A stretch of 64,000 nt of DNA from Aspidiotus rigidus (lineage: Eukaryota; Arthropoda; Insecta; Hemiptera; Diaspididae), in the NCBI GenBank assembly GCA_035079385.1, contig JAVHKY010000028.1:8804001-8868000 (forward strand), in the 5' to 3' direction. How positions within the stretch are numbered: the stretch's first letter is position 1; each line of letters starts with the position of its first letter. This document shows positions 1-59,213 of this stretch, one piece after another. Under the pieces are notes generated by a model, which saw only the letters and a program-made list of their open reading frames with translations, was not told the origin of the DNA and made no database searches. The position numbers were made by a program, and so were the translations under genes.

Positions 1-129
1 CGCTCTCATAAGATTGGTATTGTGGTCGAATGTTGCAGAAAAGCGTGCTCTTTACAGCAGTTGTTTGGCTACTGTGCACAACTATCGGAGGTGCCGGACT
101 ATCTGAAGATTATAAGCATAGATGGTTGA
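1..129 (+). CDS. ILP: Insulin-like peptide, A-chain part of last exon (partial, 5' end outside window)
   Basis: The frame starting at base 1 is open for 42 codons and ends in TGA at 127-129. It contains GIVVECCRKACSLQQLFGYC, which fits the insulin A-chain signature CC-x3-C-x8-C with the usual GIV start. In the insulin family such a peptide is cut from a secreted prohormone and binds an insulin-type receptor tyrosine kinase. The residues before it (RSHK) are basic and may belong to the C-peptide/A-chain processing site, but the full site is not seen. After the last cysteine there is a 17-residue extension ending in IISIDG. This resembles the extension of the second ILP gene here (VP.PRYIKAL against VP.DYLKII), which suggests paralogues. 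The B-chain exon must lie upstream of the window. Confidence 0.88.
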   Translation, partial: RSHKIGIVVECCRKACSLQQLFGYCAQLSEVPDYLKIISIDG

Positions 130-6560: not shown

Positions 6561-6561
6561 T

Positions 6562-21640: not shown

Positions 21641-21649
21641 GAATCAATA

Positions 21650-29003: not shown

Positions 29004-29139
29004 TATACGCGAAAAAGACGAATACTCCGAATGGAGAGTAAACCTTGCAAACCGCAGAAAATACAAAACGACGAGCGCTTTCGGTTAATAAACAATCTTC
29101 AAGCCTGAAATGAAAGCAACTGACGAACGGAGGAGAAGA

Positions 29140-29487
29140 ACAAACATTCCTCACAATGAGCTTCAGGAATTTTTCGATCTTCTGAATACTTGCTGGTCCC
29201 CTAACTACTGTAAATTTGAAGGGAAATTTTTCGAGTTCCCTGATGAAGTAGGGATCCCTATTGGATCACCTTTAGGCCTTCTTATCTCCGAAGTTTTCAT
29301 GTCTAAGTTTGAACTTGACCTTTTTTCTTCGAACCAGGTGTTACTTAATCATATTCACTATTGGCACAGGTACGTTGATGACGTTCTATGTACCTGGACT
29401 GGTCACCCAGATCTCCTTGGTGAGTTTCTGAGGTATCTCAATTCCTCGTACCCTTCCATCAAATTTACGTTGGAAATAGGGGTATTA
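29140..29487 (+). pseudogene. PLE-A1 reverse transcriptase part
   Basis: It reads FFDLLNTCWSPNYCKFEGK, VGIPIGSPLGLLISEVFMSK (RT block B), YWHRYVDDVLCTW (catalytic YVDD) and YPSIKFTLEIG. The fingers and the first catalytic Asp block (FDVVGLFPN) are missing, so this copy cannot encode an active RT. Confidence 0.8.
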
Positions 29488-38477: not shown

Positions 38478-39274
38478 GCTGGTCTCACCAATATAAAAGC
38501 CTCCACAATCCCCACATTCTCTCATCAATGGGTATGGGGTCCTTCAGTCTCACAAACAACCCCTTAACTGTTGTAGGGTTGTAGAACGCGGGTCTGAAGC
38601 CAAACGGGCGGAGGTCCCGATCCAATTGGAGGAAGAACTTCCCCAGAAAAGGGAGACTGATCCAACGCAACCGGCGACCACGGATCATGTCTCGGGAGAG
38701 GGAGGTGGTGGAATCAAGAATGCTCCTTGTAACTTTCCTCCGAACCATCACGTCAACGTCGACATTGACCCCATTCACTCTAGCCAGGTGTTTTATTGTG
38801 AGTACTTCTTTCTTAAAAGCAGACTGACTCAACGGAATACGAGTCAGTCTGTGAACTAGGCTATGAAATGCAGCCATCTTGTGAGCATCAGGACCGAACG
38901 AACCACCGTGGACTAAAACATCGGTCGTAGTATCTTTCCTGTAAATTCCAAACTCATGGATACCGTCTGAATAGAGATCGATAAATCCAAAAAGTTAATG
39001 GAAAATACCCCTATTTCCAACGTAAATTTGATGGAAGGGTACCAGGAATTGAGATACCTCAGAAACTCACCAAGGAGATCTGGGTGACCAGTCCAGGTAC
39101 ATAGAACGTCATCAACGTACCTGTGCCAATAGTGAATTAATTATGATTAAGTAATACCTGGTTCGAGGAAAAAAGGTCAAGTTCAAACTTAGACATGAAA
39201 ACTTCGGAGATAAGAGAGCCTAAAGGTGATCCAATAGGGATCCCTACTTCATGGGGGAACTCGAACAATTTCCC
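38478..39274 (-). pseudogene. PLE-A2 reverse transcriptase and connector, broken
   Basis: The minus strand reads VGIPIGSPLGSLISEVFMSK (39137-39403 frame), then a disrupted YVDD region near 39120-39145, then after the shared one-base deletion (about 38970) the connector MAAFHSLVHRLTRIPLSQ to KDPIPIDER. A deletion of about 30 bases near 38523 removes the SGVYKLEC part of the nuclease seen in A1 and A3. Confidence 0.7.
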
Positions 39275-39299
39275 GAGTCGCATCGGGGTATTGTTCTTA

Positions 39300-39945
39300 C
39301 CCCAATGCGACCCGTTGTTTCTTTCGTCTCCTCCCCCACTTACCTCCTCGCCAAATTCCTTGACCGATGGTTCAAAAATCGCATTGATTTTGAATCTCCT
39401 CATTCGGTTTTGAATTCGGCCTCTTTAACTGATGTCCTGAAAAGTGTAAGTCTTCCCCTGGGAACGACCATCTGCCCTTTTGATGTTGTTGGTTTGTTCC
39501 CGAATATTCCCAAGGCTGCTACTATCCAGCGAATGGGTGAGCTACTCGTCAGAGCCAACATTCCTCACAATGAGCTTCAAGAATTTTTCGATCTTCTGAA
39601 TACCTGCTGGTCCCCTAACTACTGTAAATTTGAAGGGAAATTTTTCGAGTTCCCTGATGAAGTAGGGATCCCTATTGGATCACCTTTAGGCTCTCTTATC
39701 TCCGAAGTTTTCATGTCTAAGTTTGAACTTGACCTTTTTTCCTCGAACCAGGTGTTACTCAATCATATTCACTATTGGCACAGGTACGTTGATGACGTTC
39801 TATGTACCTGGACTGGTCACCCAGATCTCCTTGGTGAGTTTCTGGGGTATCTCAATTCCTGGTACGCTTCCATCAAATTTACGTTGGAAATAGGGGTATT
39901 TTCCATTAGCTTTTTGGATTTATCGATCTCTATTCAGACGGTATC
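39300..39945 (+). pseudogene. PLE-A3 reverse transcriptase
   Basis: It reads MRPVVSFVSSPTYLLAKFLD, CPFDVVGLFPNIPKA (first Asp block), VGIPIGSPLGSLISEVFMSK and HRYVDDVLCTW. This is the most complete RT of family A here. The frame leaves the RT at the shared one-base deletion near 39935, and the protein start is absent. Confidence 0.78.
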
Positions 39946-40740
39946 CATGAGTTTGGAATTTACAGGAAAGATACTACGACCGATGTTTTAGTCCACGGTG
40001 GTTCGTTCGGTCCTGTTGCTCACAAGATGGCTGCATTTCATAGCCTAGTTCACAGATTGACTCGTATTCCGTTGAGTCAGTCTGCTTTTAAGAAAGAAGT
40101 ACTCACAATAAAACACCTGGCTAGAGTGAATGGGGTCAATGTCGACGTTGACGTGATGGTTTGGAGGAAAGTTACAAGGAGCATTCTTGATTCCACCACC
40201 TCCCTCCCCCGAGACATGACCCGTGATCGCCGGTTGCGTTGGATCAGTCTCCCTTTTCTGGGGAAGTTCTTCCTCCAATTGGATCGGGACCTCCGCCCGT
40301 TTGGCTTCAGACCCACGTTCTACAACCCTACAACAGTTAAGGGGTTGTTTGTGAGACTGAAGGACCCCATACCCATTGATGAGAGAAGTGGTGTTTATAA
40401 GTTGGAATGTGGGGATTGTGGAGGCTTTTATATTGGTGAGACCAGCCGCCAAATGTAAGTTAGAGTAGCTGAGCACCTGAAGTCTTGGGAGAAGGGACGC
40501 TTGGGGGAGTCAGCTTTTGCTGATCATTTGATAAACAGTGGCCACAGCTTCCGTGGGGGATCCGAACAGCTCCTCCGTAAGGAGAATTCGTACCGAAAGC
40601 GCATCACCCTCGAGTATATAGAGATAATGCGTCATCGCAACACTGACGGTATCACTGTACTCAACTCGTTCATTCCGGAGGATGGCCTGATCGAACTGGT
40701 CTATGATTCACACCGTGATTTCTCGTTTAGCCAATCTTAA
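39946..40740 (+). pseudogene. PLE-A3 connector and GIY-YIG domain
   Basis: Two in-frame pieces, 39946-40458 (to GVYKLECGDCGGFYIGETSR) and 40459-40740 (to SFSQS), are separated only by a TAA where PLE-B has a Lys codon (SRQM-stop-VRVAEH against SRQFKIRVDEH). If the stop were read through, the domain would be whole. Confidence 0.75.
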
Positions 40741-40893: not shown

Positions 40894-42077
40894 TTTTAAT
40901 CGCGCCCTTTCTCCTGAATTTCTCTAGTTTTTGTGAAGAGCTTAATTTCTTCCTAATACATTCGCTTTTTCAAGTATAGGATTGTTTTTGTCCGAAGACC
41001 TGTTGAAAATTGTGTACTACGACGGTGCAAAGTGGTATCTCTAATGTCATCAAAGTGACTCTCCTGAGCAAATAATATCTCTTCTGAACATGGTCCTATT
41101 TCACAGCGTTGTTCACGACAAAACAACTCACAGGGAAAAAAGTGATTTTTAATGGAATTCATTATCAATTTTATTTCCTGGTTTACTACTCGAAAGTTAA
41201 TCTTCGAGTACTCTGGATATTGTGCCAGCAGCCAAGCTTCATAAAAAGAAAAATCACCATAAAGATATCGCAACCAAAGACGAGGTTTCCAGCGTCCTGA
41301 GCAGAACTTTTTTCACACTCAATTTTCGTTTTCGTATTATTGCAACGCCTGTGCCTCAAGCGCCCTTGATAGTTGTTTGATTTGACCTCATCATGGCCTT
41401 GCACTAAGGACTGAAGATATTTTTCCTGAATTAAAAGAACAAAAAAAAAAAAAAAAACAAATTGTATTATTAATCCCCAAAAATTGAACGTAAGCACGTA
41501 ACACGTAATGTTCAAAATATCCTCACGCTTTCCCGCCTTCAGCAGCTAGTAAATCAAATGTTAAGATGAGTAATCCTAATTATTATATCAAAAGCAAGTG
41601 AGGACGTATCTGGAGAAAGAACGTCCCTTCAATGCATTTCTTATAAGACAAACGCTCTTTTTCCACAAACGATAGCACATAATTCTTAAGGCGTGTAAAG
41701 GCTAGACATTGTGCCGGCATTTACGTCAGTGTTGTTGTTCGTACGAAAAACTAATAAACGATGCAAAATTTTCGCGTTACGCCACAATTAACAGATTTTC
41801 AAATTCAAAACATGAAAAACACCGAACGCCTTCGGGCAATAGCAAATGCTCACTGAGGTTGGAAGACATCGTTGGCCACACATCATCCTCGAAGGTGTCG
41901 GAATGCCCTAATGTTAAAATATTGTGGCATTAATTAAAATTTAGTCTGTTGTCGATAGACCGATACAAATTAGCTACGACATGCGAATGCCCGTTGTTCC
42001 TGAACACGGTTGACAATTCGATTATCAAGATTTCACCACCTCTGCTAATTTGTTCGGGTGGAAAGGCTGACATTCTC
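40894..42077. other. Upstream region of the second ILP gene
   Basis: No gene seen. It holds an A tract followed by caaattg near 41440-41465 and the hairpin repeat at 41600-41672. Regulatory elements of the ILP gene would be expected here. Confidence 0.4.
41600..41672. repeat. Short hairpin repeat, copy 2 (diverged)
   Basis: 'gaggacgtatctggagaaag' and the later 'gctctttttccac' form weak arms around 'caatgcatttcttataag'. It is related to 14765-14848 and 46040-46120. Confidence 0.45.
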
Positions 42078-42114
42078 TTTAAATATAGAACGTGTCGTTC
42101 TATTCGGTCTCATT
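42078..42114 (+). promoter_or_regulatory. Core promoter of the second ILP gene (TATA and initiator)
   Basis: A TATA-like tttaaatata (42078-42087) lies about 32 bases before an initiator-like tctcatt (42108-42114). The spacing is that expected of a TATA promoter, and the predicted start lies 75 bases before a good splice donor. This is inference from motif and distance. Confidence 0.4.
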
Positions 42115-42186
42115 TATCGTCTCTCTTTTCTTGCAATAAAAACACAAGAAAAAGAGATTAATCGAGCGAAATATCTTGATTCAAAG
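42112..42186 (+). other. 5' UTR exon of the second ILP gene
   Basis: The exon ends at a near-perfect donor, caaag/gtaagtact at 42186/42187. The 79-bp intron that follows ends in a pyrimidine-rich ctttttcag just before the ATG at 42266. The exon start is set by the predicted initiator. Confidence 0.5.
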
Positions 42187-42265
42187 GTAAGTACTGGTCA
42201 ATTTTAAGACCTTCGTATTTTCCTCTAACCTCTATACGTAGGCTAGCGAGTATATACTTTTTCAG

Positions 42266-42428
42266 ATGAACCCAATTATCCAGTTTACGGGCACCTCGAT
42301 ATTAATGAGCTTGATCCAAACGTGCTGGATGCTTCATCCTTTAACTCCTATAAAATCATGCGGACAGCAATTAACGTCGGCATTGGAAGAGGTGTGTCGA
42401 CAGGGATATGTCGAGAAAAGAACCGAAC
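42266..42428 (+). CDS. ILP: Insulin-like peptide, exon with signal peptide and B chain
   Basis: The ATG follows the acceptor directly. Residues 1-31 form a moderately hydrophobic leader (ILMSLIQTCWML), read as the signal peptide. Residues 32-44 are CGQQLTSALEEVC, the insulin B-chain pattern C-G-x2-L-x3-L-x2-V-C with 11 residues between cysteines. A dibasic KR at 51-52 would end the B chain. The exon closes at 42428 on gaac/gtaaga, after codon 54 plus one base, so the intron is phase 1, as in other insulin genes. It joins the A-chain exon at 58801, whose first two bases complete the codon (c+at). The spliced precursor would have 135 residues. Family knowledge: secreted hormone acting through an insulin-type receptor. 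The 16.4-kb distance between the exons rests on phase and motif agreement, not on transcript data. Confidence 0.85.
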
Positions 42429-43623
42429 GTAAGATTTTATTCCAGTTTTTATTTTTTCCGAAATTCCGTATGGTTTGATTTAGAATTATGCTTCATATCT
42501 ACTGACGACAATTATCTCTCGAGCTTCTGAGTTATAATTTTTCTTGAAAAATTTTCGTAAGCATTTTCAAGAGTAGCTTACATCAAAATTAGATGAAACA
42601 GTTTGAAATGAGTCAAATAGCTTACGAAATGTTCCATTTTGCTTATGAAACAAGAGACGTTTGAAACACTTTCAACCAGGGTTATTATTTAATATAAAAG
42701 GTTCAAAATCGAGAGCTCCTATGAGAAAGGAAAAATCTCAAATTGTCAATCCCTATAGAGGGTAACTTGAATAAATTTTACCGAAGAGAAACTGATTGGA
42801 TCGATTATCTCTCAAAATCCAACAATAAATTAGCGAAATTGCAAAGTTGATTAACTTTTTTGCTCGATTTTTATGAGCTAGTCGGTGTTTTGTATCCTCA
42901 CGATAACCCTGAGATTTGAGAAAATTCCTTCTTTCGAGCTAGACCAGTTGGAAATTTTTCGACTTTCAAACACTACTTATGTACGAATTTCGAACTCTCT
43001 TAACCTCTAAGGCTTGAAAAATTTCGCAGATGGGCTAAAAGGGAAAGGAAAGGAGGGTCGAGCCACCATGAAGAGAGGGAAAAAGGTGAAAAAATGTTCA
43101 AAAGTTGTACTTGCCTACTTTTCGTATTATACCAAGTTATCTCATCAATTGAATTTTTCGAGTCCTACTAAATTGAAATTTAGGTCCATAATTGTTCTAA
43201 CATTTCGAAAATCTGAAATATTCCAAGTCACATTATTCCATGATTTTGCAAAGTTCCGCTTAGAATTGTAAAAATGTCGATCTTCAAGTTATAATAATTA
43301 TGAGGACGGGCAGTTGGGAACTACGTTTCTTGTCCTTGAGACTTTGCGACTTGTAAAAATAATATTGAATACATATCAAATCATTGGAGATTTGTAGAAT
43401 GGAAGTTACCTTTATTAGGCAGAAGAGAAAAGATTATTTTTCGATTTTGGTTTGTCATATGTTCTCTAATCCCTCTTACTATGCAGCTGATCTCACATAA
43501 TATGGACAAATCATACAAAAAGTACAGATCTTTCGAGTACCTAAACCTTCTGATATTCACACTAATTTTTAAGTACACTTCAATGTCTTCACAGATCGCC
43601 ATTTTCCTAACTAAACTTTCATT

Positions 43624-44290
43624 TTTACAGATGGTTCAAAAGACGATAAGGGAGTAAATTCTGTGATCTGGATCCTCTCTCTTTCCACCGAAATTACCAT
43701 GTTTCTACCCACTTTCACATCTATCTTCCATGCCGAACAAATGACTAGATATACCAAGGTCGCATCTAAAATTTTTCTACTGGTCGTTTCCCTATCATTT
43801 CAGACTCCCTTTCAGCTTTACAATCCATTTCAAGGTGACCGAAAAGCTCCAAATCCTCACTAGCGTTTACGATCATATCATTAAATCACTTTCTAAACCC
43901 TGTTCATACTAAATTTCTATGGATACTAAGTCATAGTGGAATTATAGTAAACAACAAAGCTAAAACAAGTCGCTCCTCCCCCTTCAATATCAAATTTCTA
44001 CCTCAAGATAAACTATTCTCCGTTATTCGTAGTCCCACCCGGGACGATTGGTGCTATCAATACTCCTTATCATTTAATAACCAAGCATCTCAATTTCTTC
44101 GAATACAACCTCATCTCCCATCCACTTCATGGTATCATCATTTTAACAATTTACAACGAGCTCTCATCATCAAACTCAGTCGTCTGTATTACCGCTCCAC
44201 CTCAGAAGAACAAATTTATCAGATTCCGATTTAAATACCTTCTACATCCCCACCTTAGCTTCTCGTAATCATATTTTTCTTCAATGCTCT
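43624..44290 (+). pseudogene. LINE ORF2 remnant, RNase H domain
   Basis: It starts with FTDGSKDDKGVNSVIW, the first catalytic block of RNase H in LINEs of the R1, I or Jockey-like groups, then EITMFLPTFTSIFHAEQ. After the stop at 43861 further frames resemble the continuing domain (a LWILSHSGI-like stretch near 43910-43960) and then FNNQASQFLRIQPH. Many stops and shifts; long dead. Confidence 0.5.
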
Positions 44291-44599
44291 CAAAGAATTG
44301 AGAAACGCATCACTCAGAGTAAACAACAACCCTTTGTTTGACGCAGACACTTTATTATCTTCAGACCATATTGAAAACTTCCCTGAAAATTGCAAATTCA
44401 TCTCTCTACTCCTTCCTTTATTCATTATATAAATCTTTCCCCCTCCTGCTATGATACACCGCCAACCTATTTTTTTTCCCCTTTTCCTCTCCTTATTTGT
44501 TTACGTATATAATGTACACATACTTTTATATAGATACTCAGTAGTATTGTATTTTTTTTTTCAAATTAATATTTTTCACTCGAAACTATATTGGTTGGT

Positions 44600-45270
44600 T
44601 TAAATGGGGGAAGGGGGGGGGGAATCTCCTTGTTCGGGGAAGAATTCAGCATCTTTGGTTGATAAGCTCAAGGATGTAAATCTCCCCCTTGAATCAATTT
44701 TATGTTCCTTTGATGTTGTTGGCTTATCCCCCAACATCTCTAAGGCTTCTGGGCGAACCAAATATCGATTCCTCACAAAGAATTTAAGGAATTTTTGGAT
44801 CTACTGAATATCTGTTGGTCCCGAACTTTTGTAAATTTGACGGGAAATGTTTTGAGTTTCTTGAGGAGGTAAGAATCCTTAACGATTACCCTCTGTGCTC
44901 TCTCATTTCAGAGGTTTTCATATCTAAATTTGAACTTGATCTCTCTTCTTCGAGGTATGTATTTTTAAATATCGCGTCTAGTATTGGCACAGGTACGTTA
45001 AGGACGTTTTGTGTGCATGAAAAGGCCTTCTCTGAAGCGAGTTATTTTAACAAACAATACTCTAAACAAGAAAGAGGAATACTCCGACGTGGAGTATTCC
45101 TCTTTCTTGTTTAGTATGGATAGCCGTAACTTAAAGGAACGGATTCGTTTAAACAATACTCTTTCATAAAATTCACGTTGAGAGTCGGTGGTTCCTCCGT
45201 AAATGTTTTGGATTTGACTATCTCGGTTAGAGACGGCATTTATGAGTTCGGTAAAATGCTTGGACCGTGG
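44600..45270 (+). pseudogene. PLE reverse transcriptase remnant
   Basis: Successive frames read NSASLVDKLKDVNLPLESIL with CSFDVVGLSPNISKA, then VPNFCKFDGKCFEFLEEV, CSLISEVFISKFELDL, a degraded HRYVDD region (IGTGTLRTFCVH) and RVGGSSVNVLDLTISV. It is closest to PLE-B. Between the last two pieces lies the 87-bp mini-PLE. Confidence 0.65.
45064..45150 (+). mobile_element. 87-bp mini Penelope-like element
   Basis: A perfect hairpin with 22-bp arms and a five-base loop (45064-45112) is followed by a tail beginning agtatggatagccgtaac and ending cggattcgttt. The tail matches the terminal tail of PLE-A1 (31046-31087) and of PLE-A2, and the arms resemble the outer inverted ends of PLE-A (ggagtattcgtcttt). 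It is flanked by 12-bp duplications aaacaatactct (45052-45063 and 45151-45162), the same length as for PLE-A1 and PLE-B. It therefore seems to consist of only the two ends of a PLE-A-like element. Confidence 0.7.
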
Positions 45271-46030
45271 GTCGATGACGTCACAGGCAAAACCAAGCTG
45301 ATGACCTTACGAGCTAATAACGTCACGCACGTTGATGTCGTCACAAGTAGATTTGACGGATGATGGTGATGACGTCACAATCTTTACTGTGCCTTTATAC
45401 TCGCAAGTTTGGGAATGGGTTTCCTCTTTTCAATGTCTTTACCAGAACCCTAGCCGTCCATCAAAAACCTTTGAGTCCAAGTCCGAGTTGATTTTCCCCG
45501 CACTCCAGAGCGAGGAATCCTTGAATTGATATAGAATAGTTAGCTTATTATACTACACCAAGCATGAGGGCGAACGAGCGGAGTGAGTGAGTCCCCGAAA
45601 TTCAGCCACTTAACATACAGTATACAAAGACTTACGTAGATTAAAAATGGGGACAAACATAGTATACAATCGATATATCGATACAATCAAGATCGATATA
45701 TTAATAAAACGCCCAAAGACATGTACACAATTCAATGATTTTCCATAGAGCAAAGAAATTTACTATTAGCTTTAAATTAGGCCTAACTGAATTATACTAA
45801 TGCTAGGTTATACTCGGCCTAAATTAGGCTTAGCTGTGTACAATCTACTGGATTGTACTAGGCTTCTGCCTTCTTCCCGTTGATGGACCTAATCCAGAAA
45901 GAGAGAGAAAAAATAGTAAGTTACTAATTTGGTGACGTCACAGGTAGGTCCAAGCTAAAGACGTCACAAATCTTGATGACGTCACAAAGAGGTTTGAGCT
46001 GGTTGATGTCTCTACTGTGCCTTTATCAGC
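45270..46030. repeat. Two copies of a repeat with TGACGTCA palindromes
   Basis: TGACGTCA occurs at 45276-45283, 45370-45377, 45933-45940 and 45977-45984, with near matches between. The surroundings repeat as well (tgacgtcacagg..ccaagct, and ctgtgccttta downstream in both). TGACGTCA is the palindromic CREB/ATF site; here it may simply be part of the repeat. The spacer 45400-45930 has no gene. Confidence 0.5.
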
Positions 46031-46039
46031 TATCGAAAG

Positions 46040-46120
46040 TTGAGGACCTTTCTGTCAAAAGGGCGTCCACTCAATTTATTTCTTATGGGACGGACGCCCT
46101 TTTGACAGAAAGGTCTTCAA
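46040..46120. repeat. Short hairpin repeat, copy 3 (nearly perfect)
   Basis: 29-bp arms (46040-46068 and 46092-46120) match at 28 of 29 positions around a 23-base loop containing 'caatttatttcttatggga'. The inner arms hold aaagggcgtcc and its complement. It is the youngest of three related hairpins. Confidence 0.65.
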
Positions 46121-46235
46121 TTATTCTGTCTTATGTAGCTGGATCGAGCAACTATAAAAAGATATTAAAAATGATTTTCATTTGTTTGGATTTGCCAGAA
46201 CACTCTTTTAATTAAAATTATTATTTTCACTTACC

Positions 46236-46240
46236 CACTG
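46236..46240. repeat. Target duplication of the BEL/Pao element, left
   Basis: cactg, repeated at 54051-54055 directly after the other LTR. A 5-bp duplication is normal for the superfamily. Confidence 0.85.
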
Positions 46241-46747
46241 TGTTCGAAATTCTCTATCTTTATGCTATCGGTACTTACCCACACTTACTCGAACTTACCT
46301 GTAGGCTGTTTTCTTCAAAGTTTTAAGGTTATGTAGTCTCTAACGAATAGAGACTTGGTTTTGTTTTCTTTTCATCTTCTAGTCCAAGACACTAGATTCC
46401 CATAAATAGGTCATGTAACATTTCTTCTTATCGCAATGCACTCCTTTGGGCTACTGGGGATACGAAGTATCCCGACGACAAGAAAAAGAGAGAGAAACCT
46501 TTTGTATGCGATGCACTCCTGTGGGCTACTGGGACCGCGGTCCGACGCATACTGAAAAACTATGTTGGGTTACCTCTCAGGCCACCTGATTTGGAAAAAA
46601 GGTTAAGTTGGTTTCGGATGCTCCGAAAAGGGTCAGGGGCTAACAATTCAGCCTATTGGCTGCCCCTCCATTCTTTCTCATTAATCATACTCATAGCAGT
46701 TTCACTGATGACGGGAGGAGTTCTAAATATTGGAAGATTTTCTTTCA
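46241..46747 (-). repeat. 3' LTR of the BEL/Pao element
   Basis: 507 bp, nearly identical to 53544-54050. Internal: two copies of an 'atgcactcct..gggctactggg' word about 75 bases apart, each beside a small palindrome (gggatacgaagtatccc and ggaccgcggtcc). Confidence 0.92.
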
Positions 46748-46763
46748 TCCTCCCCCCTTTGAG
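46748..46763 (-). promoter_or_regulatory. Polypurine tract of the BEL/Pao element
   Basis: On the minus strand ctcaaaggggggagga abuts the 3' LTR; it is the usual plus-strand primer of LTR elements. Confidence 0.8.
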
Positions 46764-47374
46764 ACTAGGTCTCAAATATCTGTATGAGTAGATTACTGGA
46801 CTTCATACAATTCAGCATGAGTTGGTTAGGATTGCTCCAAGGATTTAGAACATCGAGACTCTTTGCGATCAAGAACATCACAAATATGGATTATTTGTGC
46901 TATTCCTTTTCTAACAGGTTTTCTTTTCAATATACGTACGTACTATGTGGGTTTGGAACAACACTAACATTGGACATGGCGAGTATGTCCTGCTCCATTG
47001 GTACTGATGAAGCAAAGATCTATTGTAAGATCCACCTGTCTAAACTGTTGTATTATGGTTCCGTCTTCCAGGGGAAGGGCTGAGTATAATGCGTACCAAA
47101 CATTATTTACTTGATGATCATCTTTCTTCTCGCCTCTCAGCACTTCTAACAGAAATAATTGACATATGAATTTACAATGAATTATGTAATAGATATAAAT
47201 CATGGATTTATATGACACTTATTCGAGGATTTTCATACATATATATATATATTTTATTTATTTCTGGTCTTCGCTGTTGTTCTTCCTTTCTGCGTATATG
47301 AAAAAAAATACAATCGCGTTAATAGGTTCACTATTAACAAGCCTCAACAAATACTTGATTAGCAGTAAAACTCG

Positions 47375-48352
47375 TTAATCAGTGGGCAGATACACTAATT
47401 TTGTAACTGGCCGTTTAAATGACCCTGCCTCAGTTCTTACAGTGACTACCCGATTCAAACCATCTTTACCGGGATGTAGTTCCTGTATTCGTCCCTTTCT
47501 CCAGGTCATTGGAGGAGCATTGTCTTCTTTGAGCAAGACAAAATCGTGAATTTTGAATTCATTTTTAACAGCTCGCCATTTACTTCTCTGTTGGAGAGTA
47601 TTGAGATATTCCTCAGACCACCTTTTCCAGAATAACTGCATAGTTCGTTCACGCCTTAGGTATAACTTTACCCTGTTTTCTGGAATATCGGTTAATGGTT
47701 CACTAGGCAAAGCTGTTAGAGGGCCTTCAACTAAAAAATGACCTGGAGTCAAGGCACATAAGTCTTGAGGGTCAGACGTTAGAGGTGTCAAAGGACGAGA
47801 ATTGAGGCATGCTTCAATCTGAGTGAGCAGAGTAGTCAACTCTTCAAAGGTGAAAACCTTGTCCCATAAGACAGTTTTTAAATGAGCTTTCATTGACTTC
47901 ACTGCAGCTTCCCACAAACCACCGAAATGAGGCCCGCTTGGTGGAATAAACTGCCAGTCAATGCCCTTTGAAATTGCAAAATCATTAATCTCCACTCTTT
48001 TCTCCTTGAGGAACAGATAGAGACGTTGTAGTTCGTTGTTTGCACCTGTGAATGCGGTTCCATTATCTGAATGAATTTCAGCTGGAATACCTCTACGACT
48101 AACAAAACGAGTTAAGGTTGCAATAAAGGCTTGACTTGTTAAGTCAGAAACAACTTCAAGGTGGACGGCCTTTGTCTTGAAACAAACAAATATTGCCACA
48201 TAGGCCTTAATCATTACTTTATGCCGACCACCTTTACCAATGATTGTGTAAGGTCCTGCATAATCAATGCCAGTAACTTCAAAGACTTTGCTTGAAACTA
48301 CTCTCTGTCTAGGAAGATTCGCCATCATTTCACTGGAAACTTTGGCTTTCAA
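47375..48352 (-). pseudogene. BEL/Pao integrase with C-terminal DUF5641-like region
   Basis: The DDE residues appear as IDYAGP (about residue 30), HSDNGTAF (about 96) and GGLWEAAVKS (Glu about 148). The C-terminal part (about 200-325: TPGHFLVEGPL, WRKGRIQELHPG, RPVTKLVYLP) is the domain typical of BEL/Pao integrases. The frame opens with TTG-AAA; a frameshift near 48365 cuts it from the upstream RNase H frame, and the HTCITLKAK stretch of the integrase zinc-binding region spans the break. Confidence 0.88.
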
Positions 48353-48365
48353 TGTGATGCAAGTA

Positions 48366-50483
48366 TGACATTAAATGATACATTTCTTCACTAGATTGTT
48401 TATATTTTCTCTGAATTACTGCTTTCAGTAATCGAGGACCAGCGTGTAGATGAATCAAATGTTCATGCCAGACAATCAATATTGATAATTTGTGATGAGA
48501 GTGGAGAATGATAGGATGCTTTTCATCATATGAAAGTTCAGAATTATCCAGCCTTCCTCCCACTCTCAGTATACCTTCTGAATCCACAAATGGACTGTAA
48601 CTTATCAATTTGCTTGTTTGAGGCAAAACCTTATTATTTCCTAAGCATTTGATTTCTTGAGAGAAGTATTCCCTTTGAGCGAGCTTGATCAAAGTATTTA
48701 GAGCACCTTTGAATTCTTGAAGGGTCACCACATTCCCTTTTGCAAGCTCCTTCAAATCAGATTTGTTCAAATTTTGAATTAAAGGACAATTTCTAAAGGA
48801 ATGTTCTGAATCACACTTTGGGCAAGACTTCACAGTTGTTTGTGAATTTGAGGTAGTCTGTGGTCTACAGAGTTTTAAAAACCTTTGGATCCTTGCTGTC
48901 AGTCTTACTAATTTAGTCAATCCTTGATTCAATCCAAATACTGTAGACCACTTTCCCGACATAGGTTCATTTACATAGGAAAATAAATTACTATGTAACA
49001 TCTGAATAGGGTATGAAAATTGTACCACCTTTCTCTCAAGAGTCTCATTTTGGTTAGATACATTAACAACTGAACTAGACCACGGCCTAGCATGTTCAGA
49101 AAGCCAGTCTGGTCCATTGAACCATAATTTTGAGCGCAGTAACTCTTGAGGTAGAGCAGAACGCGACAAAATATCTGCAGGATTTGAAGCTGACTCAACG
49201 TAGTCCCAGATACAATCACCCGTCAGAGACTGAATTTTACTAACCCGGTGTGCAACAAATATGTTCCACTTTAGTGACTCAGATCCAATCCAAGCTAATG
49301 TTACTTTTGAGTCAGACCATAACCGAATTAGATCAATTTTCACATTTAGTGACAAAGCAACTCTTACCTTTGAGACTAGTTCTGCTAATAACAGTGCTGC
49401 GCACAGCTCTAAGCGGGCAATGGATAGCTGTTTGAGGGGAGCTACTCTGGATTTAGAGCACAACAAGTGTACCTCTACTTCACCTAAATCATTTACAGTT
49501 CTACTATAAATAACTGCTCCAAATGCTTTAGCACTAGCATCTGAAAATCCATGTAGTTCAAAGAACGGACTAGCTTTCGTGTGAGAAATGTAACGAGGAA
49601 TGCTGATATCATTTAAACAGTGTAAATTTTGAGAAAATTTTTCCCACCTTTCTAAGATCTCCGTTGGTAATTTCTCATCCCAATGAGAAACTTTGTTTTT
49701 CTTTGATTTAGCTGTCAATTCCAACTGAGTATTATCTTGTTTGTCGCGAGTCAAAATCCAGATTGATTGCATTAAACATTTTGCAAAAACTATGACGGGC
49801 CCAGAAAGACCTAAAACATCATAGAATCCAGAAATCGCGGACAAAATTTGTCGTTTGGTGGTAATTTCTGTAGTCAATGTATCAGCAAACCGACACTCTA
49901 ATGTATCATTTGAAGGCAACCATAGAGTACCTAAAGTTTTTACAGTTTTAGTTTCATCTAAGCTAAGAGAGAATTCACTAATTATGTGCTCGTCACCTAT
50001 CCCAGACAAAATTTCAGGTACATTTGCACACCACTTGGTTAATTCAAAACCTGCCTTTCCTAACAGCTCTCTCAATTGTCTTTGAATTGTCTGAGCCGAG
50101 CATAAATCGTCAGCTCCACTCAAGCAATCATCAACATAAAAATCATTCAACAATGCTTTTCTAGCTGCAGGAAAAGGTGCTCCATACCGATCTGCCAATT
50201 CTTTCAAACAACTTGTGGCAAGATAAGGAGCCGGCTTGGTGCTGAATGTAACTGTCCTAAGTTGAAAAACCTTCAAATCTTTGTCTGGAGAATCACGCCA
50301 AAATATGCGCTGAAGGGGGGCACAAGTAGAATTCATTTCAACCATTCGATACATCTTTGTAACGTCTGTTACAAAACTGTACTTATGTAGTCTAAAACGT
50401 ATCGTGGTTGAAAAAAGCTCTGGTAGAATAACTGGTCCTTTCATTAAAATATCATTCAGAGATACACCTGAAGTTGTTTTCAT
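48366..50483 (-). pseudogene. BEL/Pao reverse transcriptase (rest), RNase H and integrase N-terminus
   Basis: It follows the frameshift after VKESSTSSKCRV. It reads TSGVSLNDILMKGPVI, the catalytic LLNDFYVDDCLSG (YVDD at about residues 116-119), the A17/connection region (LSAISGFYDVLGLSGPVIVF), RNase H marks (LHGFSDASAKAFGAV, RLELCAALLLAELV, LWSDSKVTLAWIG) and the region before the integrase (GILRVGGRLDNSEL, HPIILHSHHKLSILIV). Active-site residues look intact. Confidence 0.88.
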
Positions 50484-52842
50484 ACTGGCATTGAAGACTA
50501 CCTACTCTACATTTTGAAGAAGTGGAACTTTCCTTTATTACAGCATGGTGTGGTATGTAATAAGTAGGCCCTACATCAACTCTTTCGTCAACTTCAGTCA
50601 TATGGTTGAGTGAGATATACTCACCCATGCAAGACACATATTGTTCTCTAAGTGAAGGTTTAGCAGCTAAACGTTTTTCTAGATAATTAAATTGTTGTAA
50701 AGCCTGAGAACGTGAATTTCCTAACGCATTAGCCGAAGTTTTGAAGGGTAATGTTACTACAAATCTCCCATCAGCTTTCTGAAAAGTTGTTTCAGTAAAA
50801 ATGCGTTCACATTCTCTTTCCTCTCTGCTTAAGGGAGGAGTGAGCTCGTCAAATGATTCAGCTATCCAGAATCGTTCAAGAGATTTCAATAGAGCGCTAT
50901 CGTCATGAACACAATAAACAAATTTGTTTTTACCTTGAGTTGTCAATTTTAAACTGCCTGCTACAATCCACCCAAACGCTGACTCATGTAAATGAGGTAA
51001 ATTTACACCTAAATGTAATTTTTTGTCTCCAATTACCTTCCAAAATATGTCAAGATTCAATAACAAATCAATAGAAGCAGGTACATTGAAAAATGGGTCT
51101 GCTAAATGTACATGAGACGGCATGTTCCAGCGTTTTATATCGAAATATTCAGAGGGGATTAAGGCATCTAAAATAGAATCTACAACATAGGCATTTATTT
51201 CTATTTTGAAATTTGTGTTACAAGACTGAATCAACAAGGTCGTGCATTTAGCTACTGAACCTGCTTCACCAAAAATTCCTGTGATTGAACATGTTGTTTC
51301 AAACACCATCGCGCAAAGTCTTTCAACTACTGCTGAAGTTACAAAATTTATTTGACTTCCATTGTCGATAAATGCGCGAAATTCTAAGGGGTTTTGAAAA
51401 GTGCTTGATGAAAGCTTCACTAATATTGTTGACAATAAAGAGTGACTAGTGTCATGTAGATGTAAATTGCTGGCAACTACATAATTAACTTGACAAAGAG
51501 AAGACAACAAATTCTCGGAAATAGCAATAGCTTTTGTCTTTTCATCATCAGAACTGCCACTGTTAACTTTACTACTAACCATAATAGTTTCAAGCAACTC
51601 ACCAGTATTTGTGTTTCGTTCAGCGGTATTGCGAATACCGGTATGCAAAGTTGAATGGTGAAGACCATTGCACGGGCATATGAAAAACCTTTTCGGGCAG
51701 GCCTTCGGATCCTCAGCACCATTACACTTTTGGGTCAAACAAATTCGGCAGAGCGACTTCTCCACGACGAATGCTGCACGCTCGGATTTGTTGAGAGCTC
51801 GGTACTGCGGACACGAATTGAGGAAGTGAAGCTCTTCGCACTTGGGGCACTTGGCTGAGCCCTTTGGCTTCGACGGTTTCCTTGTGCCTGAAGATTGCTT
51901 CACCACCCCACCGACAAAGCCTCGTTTTCCACCATTAGAGCTTGTAATTGGTCGGGACGGAGCTGAATGTGAGCGAGGGGCTCTTCCAGCTCGCTCCAAA
52001 GCTCCGCATTCTCGTTCAATGAAAGAATAGAAGTTCTTCAATGAACAATGTTTTGTTCCTTTCTCGCCTACTTCTTTCTCCCATGATAGACGCACTGCGG
52101 GGGAGACCCGATTGAGAAATGTTGTAATGGCCAACATTTCGTATGCATCTATCTTCAGCAGAGGTTGGTCATATGTGTCACATACGACCTTCCAGCAGTC
52201 TTTGTAGCTCGAATCCTTCATGTTTTCAATGATCTCATGAGCAGTACCTTTCAATGCCATTTTTAAGTACCGACGTTTCGCATTTTCGCTGTTTGTCACT
52301 CGCAAATCCGAAATTAAATGGAGAAAATCGGTCTTAAAAGCAGCCCACTTTTCTAATTTACCATCAAAGGTCGGAACATCAAAATGCGGAAGCTTAAATG
52401 GTGTTTCATTTTGCGACCGTGCAGTAGCGCTTCCAAAATTTTGCAAGGTGTTTGGAACTTCACCAATTACGCTAATGAGTTTATTTTTCGTATCCCGAAA
52501 ATTTGAGAGAAATTCCTTTCGTCTCACATAAAACCCACTAGCTTCTCCTTGCAAAAAGATATCATTGTATTTGCGCTTTAATGACATCAAGTCATTAAAT
52601 TCCGCGATCGCAACAGGCTTAGAATCGATTTCGTTAGCACCTTCCAAAATAAAATTCATTTCAAATTCGAGCTCAAACAATTTCTTACTCGCGATATCTT
52701 CGGAGGTTTCAAGGTTCTGACTTGAATTGTGTTCAGCATCCAGGGATGTGTTTCTTTCTTCTTCAAAATCCATAACGTCGTAATCTTGATTCTCGGCATC
52801 ATTTTGCAATGGCTGCGAAACGGATTCGTCTGCATTCAGCAA
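50484..52842 (-). pseudogene. BEL/Pao Gag, zinc knuckles, protease and start of RT
   Basis: The Gag core (DUF1759-like) is marked by LPHFDVPTFDGKLEKWAAFK (about residues 151-170). Cys/His knuckles run from CPKCEELHFLNSC (about 332) to CPCNGLHH (about 389). The aspartic protease has FIDNGSQINF (Asp about 493). The RT begins near LTPPLSREERE (about 668). The frame leaves the RT at about 50488, where gtag is duplicated (gtaggtag), a 4-bp gain. The first listed codon is TTG; the first in-frame ATG is codon 24 (52771-52773). Confidence 0.85.
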
Positions 52843-53205
52843 AACATTTTTTATAATACATGAAGCGAAAGTGCTGCGTATAGTGTTCGTTTTTCGTAGC
52901 GAAACATGCCGTTATCAGAACCGTGGCGAAAATGTTTTCCAGTGGCGAAAATCAAGTCAGTAGTGCCATTCGAAAAATTCGTAAACATTCTTTTTGAACG
53001 ATAACCAATTTAAATTGTAGGCCTAAGTGTTTCTTTCACTACATGTATTATAAAAAGTACTGTTTGTAATTCGTGTCAAAAACAAACGATATTGGAACTC
53101 ACTTATCCACACTCGCTTTGCTCGTGTGGCTACACTGCGCTCGTTCCAATATCGTTCATTTTCGCCACTTATTACAAAATGTACTATTCTGACGCCATCG
53201 TATAA

Positions 53206-53345
53206 CTTCGAATGGCTCACGAAAATTATCAACAAAAGACAGCGCGTCTTATAACTTCGAATGGCACACGAAAATTGTCAACGAAAAAGACAGCACGTCT
53301 ATATATCTTCAAATTGCGCACAAATTTATCAACGAAAAAATAATT
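53206..53345. repeat. About 62-bp tandem repeat in the BEL/Pao leader
   Basis: 'tataacttcgaatggctcac' with 'gaaaattatcaac' recurs near 53206, 53251 and, more diverged, near 53305. It lies between the primer-binding site and Gag, where packaging signals are expected in LTR elements. Confidence 0.5.
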
Positions 53346-53524
53346 GAACGCAATAATTCAAATCAAATTAAAATTCAGATTCGCTGTAACTTCAACGAAA
53401 ATATTTTTGCGGATAATCTTACGCACAAAACACTACAAATCAGCACGTACAGGGCTTGCTATATGGGGCTACAAGTCTATTGCAGTAGTACCGATAAGCA
53501 TAATTCCATTCCATTCATGTTTTA

Positions 53525-53541
53525 TCCGGATCGGAGGACCA
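53525..53541 (-). promoter_or_regulatory. Primer-binding site of the BEL/Pao element
   Basis: On the minus strand, two bases after the 5' LTR, stands tggtcctccgatccgga. Its complement ends in CCA and closely resembles the 3' end of tRNA-Tyr as I remember it; the tRNA identity is tentative. Confidence 0.7.
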
Positions 53542-53543
53542 TA

Positions 53544-54050
53544 TGTTCGAAATTCTCTATCTTTATGCTATCGGTACTTACCCACACTTACTCGAACTTA
53601 CCTTTAGGCTGTTTTCTTCAAAGTTTTAAGGTTATGTAGTCTCTAACGAATAGAGACTTGGTTTTGTTTTCTTTTCATCTTCTAGTCCAAGACACTAGAT
53701 TCCCATAAATAGGTCATGTAACATTTCTTCTTATCGCAATGCACTCCTTTGGGCTACTGGGGATACGAAGTATCCCGACGACAAGAAAAAGAGAGAGAAA
53801 CCTTTTGTATGCGACGCACTCCTGTGGGCTACTGGGACCGCGGTCCGACGCATACTGAAAAACTATGTTGGGTTACCTCTCAGGCTACCTGATTTGGAAA
53901 AAAGGTTAAGTTGGTTTCGGATGCTCCGAAAAGGGTCAGGGGCTAACAATTCAGCCTATTGGCTGCCCCTCCATTCTTTCTCATTAATCATACTCATAGT
54001 AGTTTCACTGATGACGGGAGGAGTTCTAAATATTGGAAGATTTTCTTTCA
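53544..54050 (-). repeat. 5' LTR of the BEL/Pao element
   Basis: 507 bp, partner of 46241-46747 with four visible differences. It should carry the element's promoter on the minus strand. Confidence 0.92.
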
Positions 54051-55774
54051 CACTGAACATTTTTTCAGCGATGGTACTGTTAGATATTTTTTCTTTGTGA
54101 TAAGGTGTGTCGGTGAAAAACCGTTTTTAGTAAAGTGTGCTCGCTTCGGAGGCTGGTGAAGGATTGATATTTCTTTTTTCATGTGATTACCAAATCACTT
54201 CCCTTATGAGTAATAGGAAGTTTTTCGGATTTGTTATCTATTGTGTCTCATTTTAAGATAAGGTGACGTCATTTCATAATTGTATTGCATGCTTAACAGG
54301 TACTTCCCCCTCTTCTCCCTTCTGAGAGAATGAATGCCAGTTCTATGTCTGTGTTTCCTTTTTAATTGTGGCATAAACTCACATATACTCCTTAGCTAAT
54401 AGTCGGCATCTTGTCAGTTCACTTGATTTTTGTTCTTGGTTAGATATTTGTCTATGGTACGGTAAATTTGAGTCCCTCGTAATGCCCTTTTCTCATCTAT
54501 CTTAATCTAACATAAACGTGTACACTTTAATGCCTATGTAAATCAGAAGATTAGAGAGAGGCTTCAAGAGATGTTTACTGTTCATGATCATAATTGTACC
54601 GACTACCGTATAGAAGGTATAGATACTACAGATTGCTAAGCACAATAATAATCTCATGGGCTTTCGAGTCGATGATTATGTTTCATAGTTTACACTAGCA
54701 AGTCCGGCGCGCCTACGGCGCGCCTCTTAGTTTTTTGTTTTTTCATTTTTATCTTATTCGAGAGCGCTATATAAACAGGAATAATTTTTAAAAATCTCGG
54801 TAAATTATCTAGATATTTCTACTTTGGATATTGAAAAAGAAAAAGTAGAAATTCTCCAGACAACTTTTTTTTGGACCTGTATTCAAAATTTTTATGCAAA
54901 CACAAAGTTCTCATGGCTACTTTTAATTCTGTTATTTAGGGTTTTGGGTAAGGTCGATACATGAAACAAAGGGAGTAACTCTGGGGTTTAAGATTATTTG
55001 GAATTTCTTAGTTAGATACACTATTTTTTTTGTATCTTTTCATCTCATAGTTCAATTCAATCTGCTTAGTTTTCTTTTCAAGCTTTTCTTCTTTCTTAAT
55101 TTCATTCAATTTTGCACTCTTTCATTCTTTACTTGTTCTTCCATACAACCTTTTTTTTTCTTTCTTTCTTTATCGTTTCCTGAGTCTTCCGAATTGTTCT
55201 TTGCCTCAGTATCACACTCTTCCAGTTTTCCCTCTCTTCCTCTTCTTTTTCAGTCCTCTGCATCCATCTCCTCCAATTATCCGTATTGTGATAATTGATT
55301 CTACGTGTCATCCTCTAATCTACAAATTTATGGAAGAAAAACGTTTTGATTCTAAGATTAGTTCATTCATTTCCCTTTTTCTCTTTCACTTTTTTTCTAC
55401 ATAAGATTTTTTTTGAAATCTTGTGTGTATTATATGTTGACAGTATAATTTGTTACTACAGTCGTTCCAATTTTCAGCGATGATTATTTCTTTGACCTCA
55501 CTTTTTTACATGCAAATAATGTAACTCCTCCTATTTTTGAGTTGATTTAGTTGAGACTTTGAAAATCCCTTCCTTCATTTACGTTAATTAGAAAAAAATT
55601 TCTCAAGGCCCTCAATTTATTCCTTCGAGTCCACCCACCTCCAACTAACAGTTATTCTTGACATCGAGTCCTATTTTTGTAATTCACTATTCTCTAGGGA
55701 TTCTTCTTTTAAATCCTGATGATGCTAAGAGCATCTCCAGTTTTTTATGATGTCAACTACCTAACCTAAATCGA
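54051..55774. other. Intronic stretch with no gene seen
   Basis: Starts with the right-hand cactg duplication. Pyrimidine-rich from about 55020 to 55400. Contains the GC palindrome at 54706-54724. No protein resemblance. Confidence 0.45.
54706..54724. repeat. GC palindrome
   Basis: ggcgcgcctacggcgcgcc: two 8-bp arms, each itself palindromic, around tac. Conspicuous in AT-rich surroundings; it may be the end hairpin of an unrecognised element. Confidence 0.55.
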
Positions 55775-56310
55775 GGTTCAATAGGAAACCTATTCCATAG
55801 GGGGAGGGATTTTTGAAAATTTTGGTGTCTCGCCATCATTTACCTAGAACGATGGTTGATATTTTTCCAAGTCCTTTTCCTGTCATATATATCTTGGAAG
55901 TTGAAATTCTTCCATGTTCCTCTCTTAAAAAATATAGCTTGGAAGTTGAAAGTTTTTAAAGTTATCCACTTGTCATAATTGCATAGGTCGATGTACAAAA
56001 TGCGTTTTCAATTTCAACTCCTCTGATGGTTCAATTTTTTCCAAGTTCCTCTCCTGTCATATATAGCTCAATTCCCAATATTAGAAATCTTTTCAAATCT
56101 GACTCCTTTGATATTGAAAATTTTTCCTATCCCTTATCTATCATAATAGAGCTCAAATGTCTCAATTTTTCCGAGTCCCTCCTGCTATAGTTGGCTTAAT
56201 TTTCAAAATTTTATCAAATCTAATTCCTCTTTTTGGAACCCCTCCAATTTTGAATTCAATTCTCAATATCAAAACCAATCCGTCCCATAGAAGAGGGTGT
56301 GGGAATTCCT
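55775..56310 (-). mobile_element. Old copy of the minisatellite-bearing insertion
   Basis: Starts near 'ggaaacctattccatagggg', similar to the 17-bp terminal repeat at 29489. Then several diverged units with 'ttttccaagt' and 'tgtcatatata' words follow, the reverse complement of the 54-bp unit. An edge like 'cgtcccatagaagag' closes it near 56290. Confidence 0.45.
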
Positions 56311-56379
56311 TATTCAACTTTATTAAACATGTGATTGTTTTCTATTACAGCCTTCAATTGAACTTCTTTTGGTTGAATC

Positions 56380-56800
56380 CTAGAAATCTGATTGGAAGCT
56401 TCATTACAATCCTTACTACCTTATTATACAGATAATCTGAGAATCTTGAGAATCTATCACCTTTTTTCCTGTTCTACTCTTCAAAATCAACATACTTCCT
56501 ACAAAGTATTTTCTCAATTATCCTCTGACCTGTGTAATCATTTCCAACACAGTTTCCAACTCTCGCAACTACCTGTGTTAGTCAGTTCCATTTTCCAAAT
56601 ATTTCAGTTGCTTTTCTTCTTCTACTTCTTACAATGGAAGTGATTTTTGATTCAAAAAGTTGATATTGATAAGGGATCATCATATTTTGGTGACTACTAT
56701 TTTCTATTTTGCCTATTAGCTCTCCTTCATTAGATACTTTCCATCATTATGTGGACATTTTGTCGTCATTAGAACTTTTTGCCAAATTAATTATCCTTCA
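56380..56800 (+). pseudogene. LINE ORF2 C-terminal fragment, copy 1
   Basis: It reads YYTDNLRILRIYHLFSCSTL and QNQHTSYKV, the C-terminal region behind RNase H where a Cys/His cluster closes many insect LINE proteins (compare CPTLQNQRTSHN in copy 2). The 3' tail near 56600-56800 also matches copy 2. Confidence 0.5.
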
Positions 56801-57429
56801 ATTTGCGAAGTGCTAAATTGTATCGGATAAAATGAGGTATGAAGTGCAAAGAGAAGATCGTTACCGTTATAATATTAGGCTTTAGCTATTTTTTAGCCTA
56901 ATTGTATCGGGTAAATTAGGTATGTGATGGATTTCGTCTGAAGCCTTCCTCAAGGGAACTGAGGTATGTTTTATGCGCTACTTTTATTCCATTCTTCAGG
57001 GTTTTCCGAAACTCTTTATACTTGTTGATATTATTTATGGTAATATTCTTTTTCAACTTTTGTTGTGCCCTTTTCTTAGAATCGTACCCCCTACTTTTCC
57101 TGAATACATCCCTCTCAATTTCTCACATGATGTGTCTATAGTTGGAATTCTGATTAGGTTTAAGCTCACACTTTTCTACGCTCATCTGTACAAAACGTAT
57201 CTTTTATTTGATTCTCAGTTCACATCGGTTGCCCTCAATATGATCAAACTGATTGCGCGCCTAAAAACTGCACCCTTTCACCCAAAATTAAGGACCCCAC
57301 CTTGTAACTACGTACTTACGACCATAAAAACTTTCATTATTTCTTAATCCTAGCTTAATTCTTGTATCACTCACATAAAAAAAAAACCTGCAACAAACTC
57401 GGAATCATTAAAAGTTAACCTATCCTCAG

Positions 57430-58080
57430 TCTTCATTGAACAGAAATTCCCACCATAAAGAGGTTATTTTCGCTCGATATAGAATCGGTCACTCTCAACT
57501 TGAACATTCTCATCTCCTCCTGGGTTTCCATACTCTACCTTCATGTAAATCTTATTATGCAGATAATCTGACGATCTATCATCCTTCTTCCTGTCCTACT
57601 CTCCAAAATCAACGTACTTCCCACAATATAATCTCAGTCTCATCCTCTGTCCCATGTAATCATTCCCAACACGGTTTCCAACTCCCGCAACTACCTATGG
57701 TACTCAATTACTCCAACTTATACATATCCATTTTCTTTCTCCTGCCTTCAAATTTGAGTACCACCATCTGACTCGATTGCTACCTCTTCTTCCAATCATC
57801 TTCCCTATCCTCACGTTCTTTTTGTTTGTTTCTCACTCCACTCCAGTTATTCTTATTTTCAGAATACAACCATAATACCATTTTACAAATCATTCTTTTA
57901 CTTCTTACAATTGAATAGTGATTTCTATTCAAAAAGTTGACACTGATAAGGGATTCTCATATTTTTATGACTACTATTTTCTATTTTACCTGTTGGCTCT
58001 CCTTCATTAGATACTTATATTATCATTATAATTATATGGACATTGTGACATCATTAAAACTTTTTGTCGAATTCATTTTT
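57430..58080 (+). pseudogene. LINE ORF2 C-terminal fragment, copy 2
   Basis: It reads ARYRIGHSQLEHSHLLLGF, then CKSYYADNLTIYHPSSCPTL and QNQRTSHN. 'RIGH..L.HSHLL' followed by a Cys cluster and 'HxxxxCP' is typical of LINEs with RNase H. The tail 57890-58080 is shared with copy 1. It may be the 3' end of the same LINE family as 43624-44290. Confidence 0.55.
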
Positions 58081-58800
58081 CTTGTCTCACGTCCAAGAAA
58101 GTAAGCTACCTTTTATCGAGACTTTGGACATCTAACCTGAGGTGAGGTTGTTTAAAGAGGCGAGGTAATCGATGTAAGGTTGAATCGTTGTTACGTTTTA
58201 TTTTGCTAGGCAATTCATTTTTTGTTTTTTTTTTTTCTTCCTCCAAATTTGCTAGGTAATTCATTTTACTCTTATAAATAATAATTATAATCTTGTCACA
58301 GTATGATAATTGACGTCGGATGCGATAACAGGAAAATGGAGAACTTTTACACGCACGTTTGTGATAATGAATCGTTGCACTTAAATAACCAATAATTAAT
58401 TTTCTATTTTCTATTTTGCCTGTTAACCTTCAGTTTCATCTAATTCAAACATTATCGCTGCGACGTCATTAGAATTTCACGAATATTTTTTCTTATAATT
58501 TGCTAGGCAATTCATATATATAGTAATAGAATACACGCGTTAGCTATTTTTTAGCTAAATTGTATCGGGCAAATCAGGAATGAGAGGCAAAGGGTCATTT
58601 AGCTTTTTAGTATATTAGATTTATGTACGAAACAATATTTTTTCAAGTCCCTAAGATGGGTCAAGGTCACTCATAACATCGACAGCTTGAGACGTTATTT
58701 TCGTCCAAATTTCAAATGGACGCCTGTCCCCAAAACGTATCCATGTTAAATGATCTGATAAAAATACTCGATTGAAACCATTTTCCTTTTTTTTGCACAG

Positions 58801-59045
58801 ATATGTCAGAAATGTCGGATTTCGACGCGCCCGATTACGATTACAATTACGAAAGCGACCCGAACTACGACGACATGGTCGCGCGTTACGCTTTCAGAGC
58901 TAAACGAGATCTGCTTCTTCAGGCATACGATAAGGGTCTAGTGGATGGATGTTGTAAGAAAGACTGTACAGTACAGGATTTGGTTAACTATTGCGGATAC
59001 AGTGTACCCATACCGCGATACATAAAAGCTTTAAATCTGTATTAA
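58801..59045 (+). CDS. ILP: Insulin-like peptide, exon with C-peptide and A chain
   Basis: Follows a pyrimidine-rich acceptor (ctttttttttgcacag). The first two bases end a codon split by a phase-1 intron, matching the B-chain exon at 42266-42428. The C-peptide is very acidic and tyrosine-rich (DFDAPDYDYNYESDPNYDD). RAKR (exon residues 32-35) is a furin-type cleavage site. The A chain then runs from DLLLQAYDKGLVDG into CCKKDCTVQDLVNYC, a full CC-x3-C-x8-C insulin signature, and ends with a 16-residue extension (GYSVPIPRYIKALNLY) before TAA. With the B-chain cysteines all six insulin cysteines are present. The extension resembles that of the ILP at 1-129. Confidence 0.93.
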
Positions 59046-59202
59046 TTCGCTAGAAATGATTGTCGTTTGTTGAATACATCCAAGGTTTTTATTGATTATT
59101 TTGATTCTTGAGGTACCAGCGATATCTACTAACGAAAACGTGCTCAACCGTCTACATATTAGGTCTTAAAGGCTGTGTATATGGACATTTAAAAATGTAT
59201 AA

Positions 59203-59213
59203 AATAAAATAAA
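59203..59213 (+). promoter_or_regulatory. Polyadenylation signals of the second ILP gene
   Basis: Two overlapping AATAAA hexamers (59203-59208 and 59208-59213), about 160 bases after the stop codon. Confidence 0.6.

Follow-up and report, generated by a model that had tools for sequence, protein, structure and literature searches.

The window analysed here, a 64-kb stretch of the genome of the scale insect Aspidiotus rigidus (C28:8804001-8868000), contains two short coding exons that carry the signatures of an insulin B chain and an insulin A chain and lie 16.4 kb apart on the same strand. This arrangement raises the question of whether the two exons belong to one gene or are remnants of different ones. 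In what follows, gene 2 designates the gene at window positions 42266..59045, gene 1 its upstream paralogue, and gene 3 the gene found downstream. We conclude with high confidence that gene 2 is a protein-coding insulin-like peptide gene made up of one untranslated region (UTR) exon and two coding exons, a statement that concerns the gene model and the family and not the receptor class. Gene 2 is in this sense a routine insulin-type gene encoding a well-known type of hormone, with an unusually long intron.

The first coding exon (42266..42428, + strand, 163 nt) encodes a putative signal peptide, the B chain (CGQQLTSALEEVC) and a KR site, and ends in phase 1. Its ATG lies immediately 3' of an acceptor, ...TTTTTCAG, and its 3' boundary reads AAC|GTAAGA. 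The second coding exon (58801..59045, + strand) is preceded by TTTTTTTTGCACAG, a pyrimidine-rich acceptor ending in CACAG, and encodes the remainder of the C peptide, a RAKR site, the A chain (CCKKDCTVQDLVNYC) and a 16-residue tail closed by a TAA stop codon at 59043-59045. The predicted phase-1 intron between them (42429..58800, + strand, GTAAGA...TTTGCACAG) is 16,372 bp long, and its removal joins the exons into a single open frame of 408 nt encoding 135 amino acids with no internal stop. Upstream, a UTR donor, AAG|GTAAGT, directly follows position 42186 and opens a predicted UTR intron (42187..42265, + strand, GTAAGT...TTTTTCAG) that ends exactly at the ATG, with the acceptor at the equivalent position in both paralogues. 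Candidate transcription signals flank the gene on the same strand: consensus matches to a TATA-like box (TTTAAATATA / TTTAAATA, from 42078) and to an initiator-like TCATTT (42110-42115), together covering 42078..42115, and two AATAAA motifs at 59203 and 59208 (59203..59213). The original prediction had placed both coding exons on the + strand, in phase 1 and next to good splice sites, and had completed the gene with a TATA/initiator pair, a 5' UTR exon and AATAAA signals; all of these lie where it put them, the TATA-like box being the weak point of the set.

The joined protein scored 33.8 bits against the Pfam Insulin family (PF00049; cut-off 23), and the A exon by itself scored 26.5 bits. It contains the six cysteines that had been claimed, arranged as C-x11-C in the B chain and CC-x3-C-x8-C in the A chain, together with the claimed KR and RAKR motifs, which form predicted basic cleavage sites between the B, C and A segments (GYVEKR and FRAKR). 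The N terminus is hydrophobic, the C peptide is acidic and rich in tyrosine, and within the A-chain tail the motif IPRYIK resembles VPDYLK of gene 1. Against solved structures the gene 2 protein alone gave weak best matches to insulin (E 0.0069) and IGF-I (E 0.013), and a profile of the three genes matched IGF-I at E 1.1e-7. With the insulin/IGF/relaxin family (PF00049), gene 2 shares the cysteine spacing, the B-C-A order, the basic sites and a phase-1 intron within the C peptide, the latter being typical of this superfamily.

Do the two exons belong together? Each exon of gene 2 was used to search the A. rigidus genome (441 Mb, 102 contigs), and each found one further place: a B-like segment at C28:8801757-8801921 (43% identity to the first coding exon, E 2.7e-4) and an A-like segment at C28:8803926-8804117 (33% identity, E 7.8e-4). 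Together these make up gene 1, which is complete, lies on the + strand, starts 44.5 kb upstream of gene 2 and has a predicted phase-1 intron of 1,953 bp. The window itself holds the 3' end of the gene 1 A-chain exon (1..129, + strand, with the stop codon ending at 129), the first coding exon lying about 2 kb before the window. Gene 3, found by the Pfam search, has predicted exons at C28:8899363-8899806 (L007 5363-5806, + strand) around a compact 75-bp phase-1 intron, about 36 kb past the point where gene 2 ends; it scored 43.8 bits, above the PF00049 cut-off. It was the sole match of the PF00049 search of the genome, though single exons of genes 1 and 2 exist, and all three genes matched the family at E<=1. 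Genome searches using genes 1 and 3 returned only these three C28 loci, a result that distant insulin genes might escape.

A motif scan of the contiguous stretch C28:8795001-8903900 (108,900 bp) found the A pattern CCx3Cx8C three times and the B pattern CGxxLxxxLxx[VI]C three times, always B then A and always on the + strand. Simulated first-order Markov stretches of equal length (200 in all) averaged 0.04 (A) and 0.01 (B), with a maximum of 1 for each; the B pattern was composed after seeing these genes, and its chance figure is flattering to that extent. All three genes have a phase-1 intron between B and A exons and an acceptor directly before the ATG, as judged by predicted splice sites, and the UTR donor is present in both genes compared for it, 1 and 2. 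The pairing of the gene 2 exons that had been proposed is thus supported by the architecture that the neighbouring genes share, by the B-A motif order and by the match of promoter and 5' UTR to gene 1 described below. The 16.4 kb between the exons would also suit a history in which they are leftovers of two genes, a B exon deprived of its A exon and an A exon deprived of its B exon. We give this scarcely any credence: the order in the 108.9 kb is B-A, B-A, B-A, the window has one other A exon, which comes before the gene 2 B exon and after that of gene 1, and both gene 2 exons resemble the corresponding exons of gene 1. Pairing with different partners was rejected on motif order: going 3' from the gene 2 B exon, the first A motif met is at 58950, and the following one comes after the B exon that belongs to gene 3. 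Judged by the predicted exons, gene 2 sits between the other two genes of an insulin-like cluster of three.

The relationship between genes 1 and 2 extends beyond their motifs. Their proteins aligned with a score of 175, against a maximum of 41 in 2000 shuffles, and those of genes 2 and 3 with a score of 96 (shuffle maximum 41). Taken exon by exon, genes 1 and 2 also resemble each other, with scores of 98 (maximum 38) and 88 (maximum 43) in 2000 shuffles each. At the DNA level, window 41918-42240 aligned to L002 1143-1456 of gene 1 over about 320 bp with a score of 79.5, the best of 300 dinucleotide shuffles reaching 28.0. This common segment (41918..42240, + strand) spans the proximal promoter, the UTR exon, the UTR donor and the start of the UTR intron, and an initiator-like TCA[TG]T occupies the same position in both genes. 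Judged by these alignments, genes 1 and 2 are duplicates.

Several observations weigh against this account of gene 2. The proteins of genes 1 and 2 are only 35% identical, and a BLAST comparison of their introns revealed no DNA similarity at E<=1e-3. Identity between the two genes at first, second and third codon positions is 0.49, 0.63 and 0.43; second positions are the most conserved and third positions little less so than first, so that selection on the protein is suggested and not proved. In gene 1, nothing clearly corresponds to the TATA-like box of gene 2. The gene 2 B exon alone matched no Pfam family, and its signal peptide was assigned by eye. No close relative of gene 2 emerged from about 5.8 billion proteins (none of three candidates at E<=0.001), and the three-gene profile matched one of 130 protein candidates at E<=10. 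This sole match (P0123, E 5.7e-12), a metagenome insulin-like protein, is by eye close in sequence to gene 3 and not to gene 2. Finally, young insertions in the long intron might have harmed expression of gene 2.

What, then, fills the intron? Its 5' part contains older repeats (43349..46202), stretches 66-88% identical to other genomic places; in this search 40 of 5366 first-look candidates were scored, and copy numbers are lower bounds. The largest insertion is a BEL/Pao-type long terminal repeat (LTR) retrotransposon (46241..54050, - strand, 7,810 bp). Its paired LTRs (46241-46747 and 53544-54050) are 507 bp long, have TG...CA ends and differ by 4 mismatches, and the element is flanked on both sides by a 5-bp target duplication, CACTG; the script counted 4 mismatches over 504 bp, whereas the final three bases, the exact ends and the CACTG come from reading by eye. 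Three frames, scanned separately, contained the domains Peptidase_A17, rve, DUF5641 and DUF1759, and none of them gave an RVT match at E<=0.001.

The second insertion is a Helitron (54695..58619, - strand, 3,925 bp), which begins with 5' TCTAATATACTA and carries at its own ends the 5' TC, the 3' hairpin followed by CTRR (here CTAG) and the insertion between A and T (A|T) without target duplication. At least 17 other copies, each covering at least 3.7 kb with 95-98% identity, were found in the genome, a lower bound given that 29 of 2588 candidates were scored. Among five other copies whose termini were compared, the 5' end was present in five and the 3' end in four; the 3' end of copy L027 was unmatched by the probe, and copy L021 has half of the hairpin absent. 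No Rep/helicase gene was found in the window copy, its longest inner open frame being 139 amino acids, and three of the four inner frames of at least 110 amino acids were scanned with no Pfam match. This Helitron is non-autonomous. Outside the window, some copies appear to be arranged head to tail (rows on C1, C19, C35 and C44), and the copy in the window shows a strong strand skew, with a GC skew of -0.32 at 56001-58000.

The transposon-filled intron of the original prediction can thus be put in numbers: these two young insertions make up 72% of it (71.7% of 16,372 bp) and mostly explain its length. The remainder, by subtraction of the mapped repeats, is about 1.8 kb, near the 1,953 bp of the gene 1 intron. 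A C-peptide intron of about 2 kb, as in gene 1, would have grown to 16.4 kb in gene 2, mainly through insertion of the BEL/Pao element and the Helitron next to older repeats, the insertions themselves being shown by their ends and copies and the ancestral size being taken as close to that of gene 1. The gene 2 intron is unusually long and recently invaded, and its size and make-up are notable.

The youth of these insertions bears on whether gene 2 still works. Four mismatches in 507 bp of LTR and 95-98% identity among Helitron copies possibly left too little time for decay, and gene 1, a relative, is located 44.5 kb upstream; gene 2 might have been silenced recently, with intact coding exons and insertions that block productive splicing or expression, while genes 1 and 3 remained active. 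We regard this as very unlikely. The coding exons are free of stops and frameshifts and have kept GT/AG, and insects commonly splice introns this large. Some introns of insect aIGF genes are described as very large (PMC7357564, figure legend). The gene 2 intron is presumably still spliced normally.

If gene 2 is expressed as predicted, its product would be a secreted hormone precursor. Cleavage of the secreted 135-amino-acid precursor at KR and RAKR would release a B chain and an A chain, which, by analogy with the family, would be joined by three disulphides, and the hormone would most likely act through an insulin-type receptor. A rival to this last step, and not to the gene model, is that gene 2 belongs to a non-insulin subfamily of gonadulin or relaxin type. 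Consistent with this are the low similarity of gene 2 to known insulins and the 14 residues between RAKR and the CC pair. Gonadulins, moreover, are highly variable, and some arthropods have them next to genes for relaxin and aIGF (PMC7357564). We nevertheless consider it unlikely, as the nearest relative found is gene 1, whose A chain (GIVVECCRKACSLQQLFGYC) by eye resembles common insulin.

Comparison with known systems places the insulin-type reading of gene 2 in context. From the insulin/IGF/relaxin family at large, gene 2 differs in the 14 residues between RAKR and the CC pair and in the 16-residue tail behind the last cysteine, and the protein search found no close sequence relative. In the cotton aphid, Aphis gossypii, the excerpts of PMC10349280 describe the AgosIRPs as a family of several genes, two of them arranged in tandem, with two to four coding exons per gene and transposons (piggyBac and SINE2) inside two of the genes in one biotype. 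The A. rigidus cluster is similar in its several genes, their tandem arrangement and the transposons within a gene, and thus both a cluster of this kind and the presence of a transposon within an insulin-like gene have precedents. The two systems differ in that AgosIRP coding regions span 0.5-3.4 kb in that account, whereas gene 2 spans 16.8 kb, and in the elements involved, BEL/Pao and Helitron here. The aIGF, relaxin and gonadulin genes, which the excerpts of PMC7357564 show to be clustered locally in some arthropods, resemble the present locus in this clustering and, for aIGF, in that some introns are very large. According to the same excerpts, aIGF differs in having extra exons that encode a C-terminal extension; by eye, no GTRAG donor for such exons lies between the sixth cysteine of gene 2 and its poly(A) signals. 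Among the open-access literature matches listed, no title dealt with scale-insect insulin-like peptides. The C-peptide antigen of pea-aphid ILP4, as given in the excerpts of PMC13302288, was also compared with the C peptides of the cluster, and the fraction of 5000 shuffles that reached the observed score was 0.041 for gene 2, 0.24 for gene 1 and 0.23 for gene 3; the gene 2 value was too weak and was not used.

The present data add a three-gene insulin-like cluster for a scale insect, in which the gene 2 model is supported without RNA through neighbouring paralogues of like architecture. In our judgement, annotation easily misses short hormone genes whose exons are driven apart by transposon-expanded introns, or breaks them in two. 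There is also a slim chance that genes 1 and 2, with one type of promoter, have diverged in intron length (about 2 versus 16 kb) through recent transposon insertion, in such a way that expression of gene 2 comes later or is limited to fewer tissues or to a single sex. If true, intron length would here act as a switch for an insulin hormone, in a group of insects whose sexual dimorphism is extreme.

Elsewhere in the window, a scan of 20 of the 42 open frames of at least 110 amino acids against Pfam was complemented by an Rfam search, which gave nothing over gathering scores in the 64 kb. A reverse-transcriptase-like frame at 39230-39988 (+ strand) narrowly passed the RVT_1 cut-off (30.5 versus 29.6 bits), and two others, at 36036-38465 (- strand) and 29092-29853 (+ strand), fell below it. 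C2H2 zinc-finger frames occur at 3012-6569 (- strand, 1186 amino acids) and 18411-21161 (- strand, 917 amino acids), with a 96-bp repeat period. The stretch 3556-7714 matches 18297-22505 at 78%, and 8810-11311 matches 26545-29003 at 79%; this is apparently a duplicated zinc-finger gene region. Outside the window, the mitochondrial contigs C70, C87, C89 and C97 carry COX1 twice at a spacing of 13.38 kb, with an ND4-like frame, recognized by eye, near COX1 on the opposite strand. COX1 fragments are numerous on other contigs (65 matches in all). Among the best 120 of 7996 matches to COX1 (L011), the nearest named species were soft scales and an aclerdid scale (Didesmococcus koreanus, Coccus hesperidum, Ceroplastes japonicus and Aclerda takahashii) at 67-68% identity, which makes a scale insect (Coccomorpha) the likely host, and metagenome sequences were nearer, at up to 87%.

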